Assembly (NCBI RefSeq): GCF_001509555.1
Contig: NZ_LMAS01000001.1
Coordinates: 32,971-96,970 of the forward strand
Length of the DNA: 64,000 bases
Reading direction: 5' to 3'
DNA from: Bacillus sp. FJAT-29937
Lineage (GTDB): Bacteria > Bacillota > Bacilli > Bacillales > Cytobacillaceae
The notes beneath the pieces were generated by a model that saw only the letters and a list, made by a program, of their open reading frames with translations, was not told where the DNA came from and did no database searches. Positions 16,972-32,989 of the stretch are shown here, one piece after another (positions within the stretch are counted from its first letter, which is position 1; the number at the start of each line of letters is the position of its first letter). The position numbers and the translations under genes are program-made.

Positions 16972-17952
16972 TTAATATTCCTTTTCTATTTCCAGCGTAC
17001 TTCTAATTGTATCAATTGGTCTGACCATTTTTTCAATTTGTTCCCGTTTTCCTTCTAAGAACGGAGGTAAAGATAATTTTTCGCCAAGTGTTTCATACGG
17101 TTCATCTCCCATAAATCCTGGTCCATCTGTGGCGAACTCAAATAATATTTGGGGTGCCACTCTTGAGTATAAAGATCCGAAAAAGAAGCGGTCAATGAAA
17201 CCTGATGTTGGGATTCGGAAGCTACGAAGTCGTTTATCCCATTCTTCTAAAACGGAACTGTCCTCGACTCGAAATGCCGCATGGTGAACGGTTCCAAAGC
17301 CTTGTTGCGCTTGTGGAAGATTTGGATTATCTTCCACAATTACCTGGGCTCCATTTCCGCCTTCACCCACTTCAAATAAATGAAACGCACCTTCCTGACC
17401 GATTTTGTTAAATATCAGAACCTTTTCCAGTATTTCTTTAAAATAATCAAAATTTGCGATTCGGACAAAAACAGGACCTAATCCGGTAATGGCATATTCT
17501 AAAGGAATGGGTCCTTTTTGCCAAGGCGTTCCCGATGCCACTCCTTCATTATGTTCATCAGAAATCAATTGATATTGCTGGTCATCAAAGTCGATGAAGG
17601 AAAGCGTCTTTTTCCCGAATTGTTCTTTAATTCCAGTATGCTTCACCTCAAGACGATCAAAACGCTTGACCCAGTAGCCTAAAGCAGTATCGCTCGGAAC
17701 GCGAAAGGATGTTTTTGAGATTTCGTTCGTTCCATGTATTCCTTTAGGAATGCCAGGGAAGTCAAAGAATGTAATATCTGTTCCTGCATTCCCTTTATCA
17801 TCTGCGAAAAACAGATGATACGTTCTAATATCATCCTGATTAACTGTTTTCTTTACTAAGCGCATCCCTAAGACGTAAGTGAAGAAATCATAATTCTTTT
17901 CCGCACTGCTTGTAATGGCTGTTACATGATGTATTCCTTTTAATTCGTTCAT
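16972..17952 (-). CDS. MhqO-like ring-cleaving dioxygenase (glyoxalase fold)
   Basis: A 326-aa vicinal-oxygen-chelate protein built from two glyoxalase-like halves. The metal ligands are visible in GIHHVTAI near residue 6, TVHHAAFR near residue 223, and ILFEFATDGPGF near residue 273. This is the family of B. subtilis MhqA/MhqE/MhqO, induced by quinones and hydroquinones and thought to open hydroquinone rings. A palindrome matching the MhqR operator lies upstream (see 18060-18077), supporting a quinone-stress role. Confidence 0.88.
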   Translation of the reverse strand: MNELKGIHHVTAITSSAEKNYDFFTYVLGMRLVKKTVNQDDIRTYHLFFADDKGNAGTDITFFDFPGIPKGIHGTNEISKTSFRVPSDTALGYWVKRFDRLEVKHTGIKEQFGKKTLSFIDFDDQQYQLISDEHNEGVASGTPWQKGPIPLEYAITGLGPVFVRIANFDYFKEILEKVLIFNKIGQEGAFHLFEVGEGGNGAQVIVEDNPNLPQAQQGFGTVHHAAFRVEDSSVLEEWDKRLRSFRIPTSGFIDRFFFGSLYSRVAPQILFEFATDGPGFMGDEPYETLGEKLSLPPFLEGKREQIEKMVRPIDTIRSTLEIEKEY

Positions 17953-18435: not shown

Positions 18436-19095
18436 ATGAAAAATGATAAAGCCGTTGTTGTTTTCAGCGGAGGCCAGGATAGTACGACTTGTTTATTCTG
18501 GGCATTAGAAAATTTTAATGAAGTGGTTGCCGTTACATTTGACTATAATCAAAGACATGTTTCAGAAATTGTATGTGCCAAAAACATTACAAAAGAGCTT
18601 GGGATTAAGCATTATATTCTGGACATGAGTCTATTAAATCAATTAGCTCCTAATGCTCTAACAAGGGAAGATATCGAGGTGAAGGATGGAGAGAATGGGG
18701 AGTTGCCATCTACCTTTGTACCAGGGAGAAACCTGCTATTCATTTCTTTTGCTGGCGTATTAGCAAGTCAAGTTGGGGCTAAGCATATCATAACTGGTGT
18801 GTGTGAGACAGACTTTAGCGGCTATCCTGACTGCCGGGACGTCTTTATTAAATCCTTAAACGTCTCTTTAAACCTATCAATGGATCAAAGCTTTGTTATC
18901 CATACTCCTTTAATGTGGTTAAATAAAGCTGAAACGTGGAAGCTTGCTGATGAGCTTGGCGCATTCGATTTTGTCCGTGAAAAAACTTTAACATGCTATA
19001 ACGGAATGATTGCAGATGGCTGTGGAGAATGCCCAGCTTGTGTGCTCAGAAAAAATGGTTTAGAAGAATACTTACTGGAAAAAGGGGAGTTATAG
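18436..19095 (+). CDS. queC: 7-cyano-7-deazaguanine synthase
   Basis: QueC converts 7-carboxy-7-deazaguanine to preQ0 with ATP and ammonia. The PP-loop [13 protein letters not shown] is near residue 8. The zinc cysteines are in LTCYNG and [13 protein letters not shown] near residues 188-206. The length of 219 aa is normal. It is the first gene of a three-gene operon under the preQ1 riboswitch, 4 bp before queD. Confidence 0.97.
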
Positions 19096-19098
19096 ACC

Positions 19099-19572
19099 AT
19101 GTATGGATTCCGCATAGTAGATAAACTTCAAAAGATAGATTTTGATATTAAGAGAGATCAATTGAAATACCATAACAAGCGTGTACTAGTAAGTAAAGAA
19201 TTTACTTTTGATTCCGCACACCACTTGCATGACTATGAAGGAAAGTGTAAAAACCTTCATGGTCACACATATAAAGTAATCTTTGGTATTAGCGGGCTTG
19301 TGGATCACCGCGGATTATTAATCGATTTCGGTGATATTAAAGAAATTTGGAAAAATGACATTGAAATTTATTTAGATCATCGATATTTGAACGAAACGCT
19401 ACCTCCAATGAATACGACCGCTGAGAATATGGTTGTATGGATCTATGAAAAAATGCAAGAGAGTCTAGATATCCGAAAATACAACGACGCTGCAAGAGTT
19501 GAATTTGTTCGATTATATGAAACTCCTACAAGTTATGCAGAGGCAAGAAGGGAGTGGATGATCATTGAGTAA
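19099..19572 (+). CDS. queD: 6-carboxy-tetrahydropterin synthase
   Basis: QueD makes 6-carboxy-5,6,7,8-tetrahydropterin from dihydroneopterin triphosphate. The zinc histidines and catalytic Cys are in SAHHLHDYEGKCKNLHGHTY near residues 40-60; the LLIDFGDIK and YLDHRYLNE motifs follow. At 157 aa it carries an N-terminal extension of about 25 residues compared with the shortest QueD proteins. It overlaps queE by 8 bp. Confidence 0.96.
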   Translation: MYGFRIVDKLQKIDFDIKRDQLKYHNKRVLVSKEFTFDSAHHLHDYEGKCKNLHGHTYKVIFGISGLVDHRGLLIDFGDIKEIWKNDIEIYLDHRYLNETLPPMNTTAENMVVWIYEKMQESLDIRKYNDAARVEFVRLYETPTSYAEARREWMIIE

Positions 19573-20281
19573 AATTCCAGTGATGGAGATCTTTGGGCCA
19601 ACGATACAAGGAGAAGGGATGGTAATAGGCCAGAAAACGATGTTTGTAAGAACTGCAGGCTGTGATTATTCCTGTGCTTGGTGTGACTCCTCTTTTACTT
19701 GGGATGGTTCAGGCAAGGATTTAATCACACAAATGGACGCAGAGGAAATTTGGGCAGAACTCAAACGAATGGGAGAAGAACGATTTTCATTCGTTACCAT
19801 TTCAGGAGGCAATCCTGCTCTATTGAAAAATTTAAGTGAATTGGTCGATCTGTTAAAGGAAAATTCGATTAAAGTCGGCCTTGAAACACAAGGGAGCAAA
19901 TGGCAAGAATGGTTTTACAATATCGATGAATTAACGATATCTCCTAAACCGCCAAGCTCGAAAATGGTTACTAATTTTGACATGTTGGATGAGATTATTG
20001 GCAAACTTCATACTCGCCAGATTAGCTTAAAAGTAGTAATCTTCAATGATGAAGATTTTAATTATGCAAAAAAACTTCACAAGCGATACCCTGAGGTACC
20101 GTTCTTTTTACAAGTGGGGAATGATGATATTGCCACAGTCGATCAAGATACACTTGTACATCAATTACTAGAAAAATATTCTTGGTTGATTGACAAGGTT
20201 GTCGAAGACCGTGATTTAAATAATGTAAAGGTCCTTCCGCAACTTCATACGTATATTTGGGGTAATAAACGAGGGGTGTAA
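19565..20281 (+). CDS. queE: 7-carboxy-7-deazaguanine synthase (radical SAM)
   Basis: QueE is a radical SAM enzyme forming the deazapurine ring. The cluster motif is CDYSCAWC (Cx3Cx2C, residues 33-40), and the glycine-rich SAM motif TISGGNPAL is near residue 79. The length of 238 aa fits the Bacillus type. The fourth gene of the classical operon, queF (preQ0 reductase), does not follow; a terminator does. Confidence 0.96.
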   Translation: MSKIPVMEIFGPTIQGEGMVIGQKTMFVRTAGCDYSCAWCDSSFTWDGSGKDLITQMDAEEIWAELKRMGEERFSFVTISGGNPALLKNLSELVDLLKENSIKVGLETQGSKWQEWFYNIDELTISPKPPSSKMVTNFDMLDEIIGKLHTRQISLKVVIFNDEDFNYAKKLHKRYPEVPFFLQVGNDDIATVDQDTLVHQLLEKYSWLIDKVVEDRDLNNVKVLPQLHTYIWGNKRGV

Positions 20282-20388: not shown

Positions 20389-20628
20389 TTCGAATACTGG
20401 GTTTTCATTAGCTAGGTTTTTGCCTTAGATATTTTAATCACTAATGTGTCCTATAAACCTCAGTTAAAGGACATACTTAGATAAATTCATCCCTTATATG
20501 TGCTTAAAAAGTGGATTAACGAGGTAAATTATAATAATATGTCTATAGTATAGTTATAAAATGATAGTAGAAATGCTAGAATGCCTTTTTTAAAAGGATT
20601 AGGCTTCAGCACCAAGAAAGGAGACAAC

Positions 20629-21141
20629 ATGAAATTACGAATGGTTATGCTGACACTAGCAGCAGTACTATTTCTTGCTGCTTGTGGTCAGAAGGGTTTA
20701 GAAGAACCGATTACGTTAGCAGATCAGGATAACAATGAAGTTACATTTCCGTTAGAGAAGCCAGCATTGTTCTTTTTTATTACAACATACACCTGAGGAC
20801 TTTGTCAGCAGCAACTAGTTGAGTTGCATGGAAATCTTGACAAGTTTAATGACATGGATATGGAAATGTTTATTATCAGCCATGATACACCTGAACAGCA
20901 AAAGGAATTATACAGCCATCTAAAGGACTATTTTGGTACAAGTTTGCCGTTTATTTCTGACCCGAAATTGGAATTGATTGACCGTTTTGGAATGAAGAAT
21001 GGGGATGTTGCTTATCGCGGCTACGGAATTTTGGATCAAAATGGGGAAATCATTTTCAAGAAAGTAAATGATCATTGGGGTGAAGAGATCAAACAAACTT
21101 TTCAGGATATTGAAAAGGAATATAAAAAAATCAAAGAATAA
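20629..21141 (+). CDS. candidate selenoprotein: thioredoxin-like lipoprotein read through an internal TGA
   Basis: Reading through one in-frame TGA (20794-20796) gives a 170-residue protein. It has a lipoprotein signal ending in FLAAC (lipid Cys near residue 19) and a thioredoxin/AhpC-TSA-like domain. The TGA is codon 56, in TYT-U-GLCQQQL, so it occupies the first position of a CxxC-type redox motif (UGLC), the place where selenocysteine replaces the nucleophilic cysteine in many bacterial selenoproteins. The downstream part (FISDPKLELIDRFGMKNGDVAYRG) keeps the fold's conserved regions with no further stops, so it does not look like decaying sequence. The ATG at 20629 follows AAAGGAG by 6 bases. 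A hairpin starts 4 bases after the TGA. Alternatives are a nonsense mutation or a base-call error. No selA, selB, selC or selD lies in the window. Confidence 0.72.
20797..20844 (+). promoter_or_regulatory. candidate bacterial SECIS hairpin
   Basis: Directly after the TGA, CTTTGTCA (20800-20807) can pair with TGACAAG (20838-20844) apart from one bulged T. Above an internal loop, GCAACT (20811-20816) pairs perfectly with AGTTGC (20822-20827) around the loop AGTTG. The apical loop starts 21 bases after the TGA and has G in its second position, consistent with my recollection of the bacterial SECIS pattern bound by SelB. Confidence 0.6.
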
Positions 21142-21145
21142 AATA

Positions 21146-21194
21146 AAGCCAGCCCCGTGTACAACAAATACTAACGGGCTGGCTATTATTTTTG
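21146..21194 (+). terminator. terminator after the candidate selenoprotein
   Basis: AGCCAGCCC pairs with GGGCTGGCT and is followed by ATTATTTTT. It sits directly after the read-through stop (21141), supporting that the mRNA extends through the TGA. Confidence 0.85.
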
Positions 21195-21226
21195 TTACTT
21201 AAAAAATACACCGATTGCAACAAACC

Positions 21227-32960: not shown

Positions 32961-32989
32961 GTTATTAGTTCTCTGTTAAATCTACTAAA

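Follow-up and report, generated by a model that had tools for sequence, protein, structure and literature searches.

A gene at positions 20629–21141 (forward strand) of a 64,000-nucleotide stretch of Bacillus sp. FJAT-29937 DNA very probably encodes a selenoprotein. This stretch, hereafter the window, covers positions 32971–96970 of contig NZ_LMAS01000001.1 (C1 below), in a 4.55-Mb assembly of 21 contigs whose contamination is estimated at 9.28%. As a whole, the data are best explained if the single in-frame TGA of the gene is a selenocysteine (Sec) codon served by a hairpin of the selenocysteine insertion sequence (SECIS) type, and if the product is a membrane-anchored, peroxiredoxin-like lipoprotein. 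A selenoprotein had been proposed here in an initial annotation of the window, and the Sec machinery of the genome, a TGA in all homologues read at the site and a covarying hairpin now support that proposal.

An ordinary open reading frame caller splits the locus into a frame of 71 aa that stops at the TGA (20581–20796) and another of 105 aa (20824–21141). As had been claimed, the two fragments join into one 170-aa lipoprotein: read through, the frame has 170 codons and a stop, with one TGA at codon 56 (20794–20796) in the context FFFITTYT-U-GLC-QQQL, so written with U for Sec, and with Cys59 (TGT, 20803–20805) as the second residue of the UxxC pair. The signal peptide (20629–20685) ends in the lipobox LAAC (residues 16–19), whose Cys19 (20683–20685) would bear the lipid. 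With Cys written for Sec, Pfam AhpC-TSA (PF00578) matches residues 29–142, across the TGA, at 54.6 bits against a cut-off of 26. This genome has 13 AhpC-TSA matches, and an internal stop occurs only in the lipoprotein gene.

The TGA is conserved wherever the site was read. Among 61 related genomes, including that of the window, all 30 loci that were read, one of them the window's, carry an in-frame TGA at the same codon, and all 34 matches with E <1e-20, in 32 genomes, contain TGA (four also TAA). A scan of named genomes, using two peptide seeds that both lack the Sec position, found 84 relatives; 80 were kept, partly overlapping the 30 loci, and TGA is present in every one, down to 34% identity. 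The nearest is from Cytobacillus depressus, at 79% identity, which points to Cytobacillus as the most likely genus of the window, and the genera represented include Cytobacillus, Neobacillus, Mesobacillus (with M. selenatarsenatis), Niallia, Robertmurraya, Planococcus, Aquibacillus, Salinibacillus, Halalkalibacter and Alkalihalophilus. A UxxC motif stands in all 80 (UGLC 45, UGIC 6, USHC 6, UTLC 6, UGTC 5, USLC 4, UTHC 3, UGVC 2, USIC 2, UGHC 1). An order-wide profile search (397 genomes) returned 77 matches in 74 genomes, 76 of them with a TGA anywhere in the match, accompanied in six by a TAA or TAG as well; the remaining match is a fragment that lacks the site. The UxxC site itself was read in four of the six regions fetched (L161, L163, L164 and L165), each with a similar hairpin. 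A phylum-wide search (398 genomes) gave four matches: two have a TGA, namely the window's own and a second from the same family, while the other two are plain AhpC.

No Cys form of the family was found in the 61 genomes, in 398 genomes of the phylum (E up to 1e-10), in 397 of the order (E up to 1e-15) or among the 80 named loci. The search for homologues with Cys at the TGA position, suggested in the initial annotation, thus came back empty, and no homologue with an unrelated residue there appeared either. Plasmid records gave no match to the family. TGA-less matches in the 61 genomes are weak (E about 1e-7 to 1e-3, mostly 24–28% identity) and, with their sequences unread, are taken for other AhpC/TSA proteins. 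The part of the gene beyond the TGA, described earlier as free of decay, is indeed under purifying selection. Compared with the nearest relative, L018, the proportions of synonymous (pS) and nonsynonymous (pN) differences are 0.27 and 0.03 3′ of the hairpin, and 0.26 and 0.02 before the TGA; pN is far below pS 3′ of the TGA in all five pairs compared.

A few copies depart from this pattern. In two relatives the gene has apparently been lost: one copy is frameshifted and split over two frames (G011:C1:1666991-1667480), and of another only a 33-residue match is left (G034:C46:7460-7558); both genomes have selA, selB and selD. Two other relatives carry a second Sec copy, 54% identical to that of the window (G019:C1:2761118-2761624 and G022:C38:347697-348203). 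In another family of the order, a weak match with one in-frame TGA (G051:C13:4189-4536; 28% identity, E 3.8e-4) is possibly a separate Sec redoxin.

The TGA is followed, 20 nt downstream, by the hairpin GCAACU-AGUUG-AGUUGC (20811–20827), with a 6-bp stem (20811–20816/20822–20827) and a 5-nt loop (20817–20821, AGUUG). Comparisons used three sets of rows: A1, with 21 of the 30 loci; A3, with all 80 named loci and the window; and A4, with the window and 64 of the 80, 68 having passed a similarity filter before L073, L076, L102 and L110 were excluded by hand. Among 81 sequences, 73 of them distinct, the stem positions are able to pair in 436 of 438 cells, compared with 13.5–39% for slid versions of the stem. 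One stem pair is A-U, G-C or G-U depending on the sequence, having changed 20 times on the protein tree; when the tree is controlled for, a mean of 11.1 of 13 independent comparisons change on both sides together, 0 run in the opposite direction and 1.9 show no difference (median p 0.001). Codons are bent to the stem: codon +9 ends in G in 81/81 sequences, as does +10 (81/81), codon +7 is CTN in 81/81, and +5 ends in G in 79/81.

Similar hairpins can be drawn for two other genes of this genome, FdhA (GUUGCC-GGUCU-GGCAAC, 18 nt 3′ of its UGA) and SelD (GACGCA-AGUUU-UGCGUC, 32 nt 3′ of its UGA), and the same architecture is possible in all seven FdhA and eight SelD loci examined; this comparison is partly post hoc, as the script put out only hairpins that agree with the published model. 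A rule requiring a hairpin with an RGUYN loop, set after the lipoprotein, FdhA and SelD hairpins had been seen and so also partly post hoc, picks out a single one of the 2486 TGA triplets on the two strands of the window, namely that of the lipoprotein gene. Strictly applied, it holds in 71 of 81 homologues, the rest failing because of a wobble pair, a mismatch or a different loop base. The bacterial SECIS (bSECIS) model, as given in section 5 of PMC13188914, has a loop of 3–9 nt, a stem of 4–16 bp, a G among the first two loop nucleotides, a spacing of 16–37 nt and an energy of -7.5 kcal/mol or lower. With its 5-nt AGUUG loop, 6 bp and 20 nt, the hairpin agrees with that geometry.

The genome is equipped to use such a signal. 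All four genes that the initial annotation wanted sought are present: selA (C1:297858-299240), selB (C1:351307-353169), selD (C1:299820-300746), which itself has a UGA (AGUGCK), and a tRNA-Sec with anticodon TCA (C1:378503-378595), sought in this genome only. The contamination estimate is irrelevant to the Sec machinery, because all four lie on the contig of the window. Among the 61 genomes, the same 47, this one included, are above both the selA and the selB cut-off, and 32 of these 47 carry the TGA gene, against 0 of the 14 negative genomes (Fisher p 3.4e-6, uncorrected for kinship). These counts do not bear out the earlier remark that selenoproteins are rare in Bacillales, with the proviso that 36 of the 61 genomes belong to the window's own genus. 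One relative (G002) has two selA (C12, C16) and two selB (C14, C16) matches above cut-off, and in another with selA and selB the selD gene is matched as two separate pieces (G031:C5:34134-35056).

The protein had been called thioredoxin/AhpC-TSA type. The AhpC-TSA assignment holds, but the predicted structure is that of a whole peroxiredoxin and not of a plain thioredoxin. In the profile alignment to AhpC, the peroxidatic Cys is matched by Cys59, and the Thr/Ser of TxxC by Sec56; with Cys59 taken as the peroxidatic residue, Sec fills the Thr place. Sec does occupy the first position of a CxxC-like motif, but the earlier suggestion that it replaces the nucleophilic Cys is therefore uncertain, and the attacking residue may be Sec56 or Cys59. 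Both Cys59 and Arg130 (codon 21016–21018), which aligns with an AhpC Arg that is catalytic in peroxiredoxins, are invariant in the 65-row alignment. Thr stands at U-3 in 53 of the 80 loci and Ser in another 11, the protein of the window included. A loose pattern recognizes the lipobox in 73 of 80 loci; of the seven misses, three still have the Cys. In a subclade with the motif KUTLC (L045, L098, L102, L110 and L112), Phe replaces the lipobox Cys, and these proteins may be secreted or membrane-embedded rather than lipid-anchored.

Taken together, these features suggest how the gene may work. SelB, carrying Sec-tRNA(UCA), would bind the hairpin that the mRNA forms 20 nt downstream, with its 6-bp stem and RGUYN loop, so that Sec would be put in at the UGA by the ribosome rather than translation stopping, a step to which the comparative data point. 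The 170-aa product would be exported and, to judge from the lipobox, tethered via Cys19 to the outside of the membrane. It is predicted to fold as a peroxiredoxin with an active site of Sec56-x-x-Cys59 and the invariant Arg130. Sec56 and Cys59 may cycle through a selenenylsulfide, reducing peroxide or a protein disulfide at the cell surface, and a membrane thiol donor would re-reduce them.

The surroundings of the gene offer some hints about its role. In the window, a ribosome-binding site (aaaggag, 20617–20623, forward strand) lies 5 nt 5′ of the ATG. An intrinsic terminator follows the distal stop on the same strand (21147–21193; region 21139–21197, -21.6 kcal/mol, z -4.41, T-rich tail), as had been noted before; a consensus terminator scan did not pick it up, probably because it permits only 3–8 nt loops. 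Three same-strand genes just upstream (18436–20281) resemble queC, queD and queE. In 14 of the 80 named loci, a Halalkalibacter-type clade, the order is ctaG, an SCO1-type lipoprotein and the Sec gene, and eight loci of the Neobacillus type have the gene of a cytochrome c551 lipoprotein 138–164 nt upstream. DoxX is found in the flanks of six loci, directly upstream (17–31 nt) in four, and an MhqD-like esterase in the flanks of seven, its MhqD match being under cut-off (209.8 vs 325). Seven loci, counting the window, have a member of a ring-cleaving dioxygenase family in their flanks, directly upstream (-7 to 34 nt) in three; the label is our own reading of the sequence, with no NCBIfam hit. 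The member in the window lies at 16972–17952 on the reverse strand, and in three loci, two of Salinibacillus and one of Salirhabdus, its relatives come directly before the Sec gene. Genes such as that of MhqD belong to a quinone-stress regulon in B. subtilis. An envelope role is suggested because these neighbours share extracytoplasmic electron transfer or thiol-reactive stress, and we lean slightly towards a part in protecting envelope redox proteins or in maintaining their thiols.

Several observations weigh against parts of this account. One of the two scan seeds spans the residues encoded by the hairpin, so that the loci are biased to conserved amino acids there, though not to codons. Alone, the hairpin has an energy of -5.5 kcal/mol; -9.3 kcal/mol, and with it the bSECIS threshold, is reached only when a small lower stem is included (37-nt stretch from the UGA). 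With flanks, the hairpin stretches are no more stable than shuffles (z -0.10 and -0.93), and since stability is not raised, the case for the hairpin rests on conservation. Of 73 distinct rows, 2 are without the basal pair and 4 contain a G-U, and the SelD hairpin of the same genome falls outside the predicted minimum-energy fold. The protein lacks the PxxxTxxC/PxxxTxxU motif, with Phe instead of Pro at U-7 in 80/80 loci. As for the role, no shared operon was found in the 6-kb flanks of the 80 loci, and neighbourhoods vary among lineages; the gene in the window stands alone, 348 nt from its upstream neighbour and with its own terminator. Because of these differing neighbourhoods and this isolation, the functional part of the proposal is weak.

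If the TGA were a true stop, breaking a Cys-containing redoxin gene by mutation or sequencing error, the two fragments of the ORF caller and the decayed copies in two relatives (two frames in G011, a 33-residue match in G034) would be expected; against this stand the same TGA codon in 30/30 and 80/80 loci at identities down to 34%, the purifying selection 3′ of it and the conserved hairpin. We reject this explanation, as the TGA is conserved together with the distal frame, and consider its probability negligible. UGA readthrough occurs in Bacillus, and the UGA might be read as another residue independently of a Sec system, or be subject to regulated partial readthrough that yields a short lipopeptide and some full protein. 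Even in genuine selenoproteins, Sec insertion has to compete with termination, and PMC4513850 reports in vivo recoding of 30–40%, which also counts in favour of such a scheme. It nevertheless seems very improbable: the gene occurs only nested within selA/selB genomes, its UGA falls exactly on the first position of a CxxC-like pair, and a like hairpin can be placed after the UGA of both FdhA and SelD in this genome.

A third alternative accepts the Sec residue and concerns what it does. The protein could serve copper or haem centres as a thiol:disulfide reductase, in CuA or cytochrome c maturation, acting beside SCO1 and CtaG and not as a peroxidase. The ctaG–SCO1–Sec gene order and the c551 gene just upstream speak for it, as does the profile alignment, where Sec56 at the Thr/Ser place of peroxiredoxins gives a thioredoxin-like UxxC pair. 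The other loci, the window included, have no ctaG, SCO1 or c551 neighbours in the flanks examined, however, and the peroxiredoxin fold and the Arg130 position are kept, so that we regard this reductase role as doubtful. The Sec-containing, peroxiredoxin-like lipoprotein remains the reading we prefer.

The kind of protein is known. Peroxiredoxin-like thiol:disulfide oxidoreductases (PF00578, UxxC/UxxU) are a listed selenoprotein group in the tables of PMC13188914 and PMC9312934, and the protein of the window agrees with both the PF00578 cut-off and the UxxC motif. Compared by description, the two share the PF00578 domain, Sec in UxxC and a hairpin after the UGA, whereas the present family has a lipobox, is confined to Bacillales in our searches and shows no Cys form. 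The same table lists a selenoprotein peroxiredoxin (PF00578, TxxU; PMC13188914, PMC9312934); by that entry, the likeness lies in the peroxiredoxin fold and the Thr/Ser at U-3 in 64 of 80 loci, and the difference in the missing Pro of PxxxTxxU and in the invariant Cys that follows Sec at a distance of three residues. The protein stays under the cut-off of all the NCBIfam redox and selenoprotein models that it touches, among them the SelL-related redox protein (NF040769, 30.9 bits vs 120) and the TUGYCR motif (seleno)protein (NF053656, 14.6 vs 100); the best E-value of the other 64 A4 members, for which only E-values were taken, is 6.1e-13. UxxC, lipobox and Sec set the protein apart from PrxQ/Bcp, AhpE and AhpC. 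SCO1, its neighbour in 14 loci, is a different subfamily, as are ResA and StoA of Bacillus, whose models weakly match 15/65 and 5/65 members; ResA and StoA carry Cys instead of Sec. No description of the family was found among the matches listed in the literature searched (titles and abstract openings, and open-licence PMC texts). What is new is the lipobox, the restriction to Bacillales in these searches and the failure to find a Cys form.

The family may also bear on why these bacteria make Sec at all. A UGA-bearing FdhA was found in at least 16 of the 61 genomes (model TIGR01591, E <1e-50, listed matches down to about 311 bits), including this one (C5:77311-79335), and 10 of those 16 also have the lipoprotein. 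In 22 of the 32 lipoprotein genomes (one copy frameshifted), no UGA-bearing FdhA is among the matches listed, other formate dehydrogenase models not having been searched; there the known Sec users are the lipoprotein and SelD, with no search for others and no genome-wide hairpin search made. The Bacillales group contains many oxygen-exposed species, and in this group neither the 80 named loci nor the 77 order-wide matches of a protein with an export signal include a Cys form. The lipoprotein is another gene that an ordinary ORF caller splits into two. We tentatively propose, as a possibility that we rate well below even, that this is an obligate-Sec, peroxiredoxin-like family of the outer surface of Bacillales with no Cys counterpart, which together with SelD might sustain the Sec machinery where Bacillaceae lack a Sec formate dehydrogenase, and which might act outside the membrane for the respiratory chain or in the defence against quinone stress, in organisms that meet oxygen. 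If confirmed, the family would make the question of why Sec is kept testable in culturable strains.
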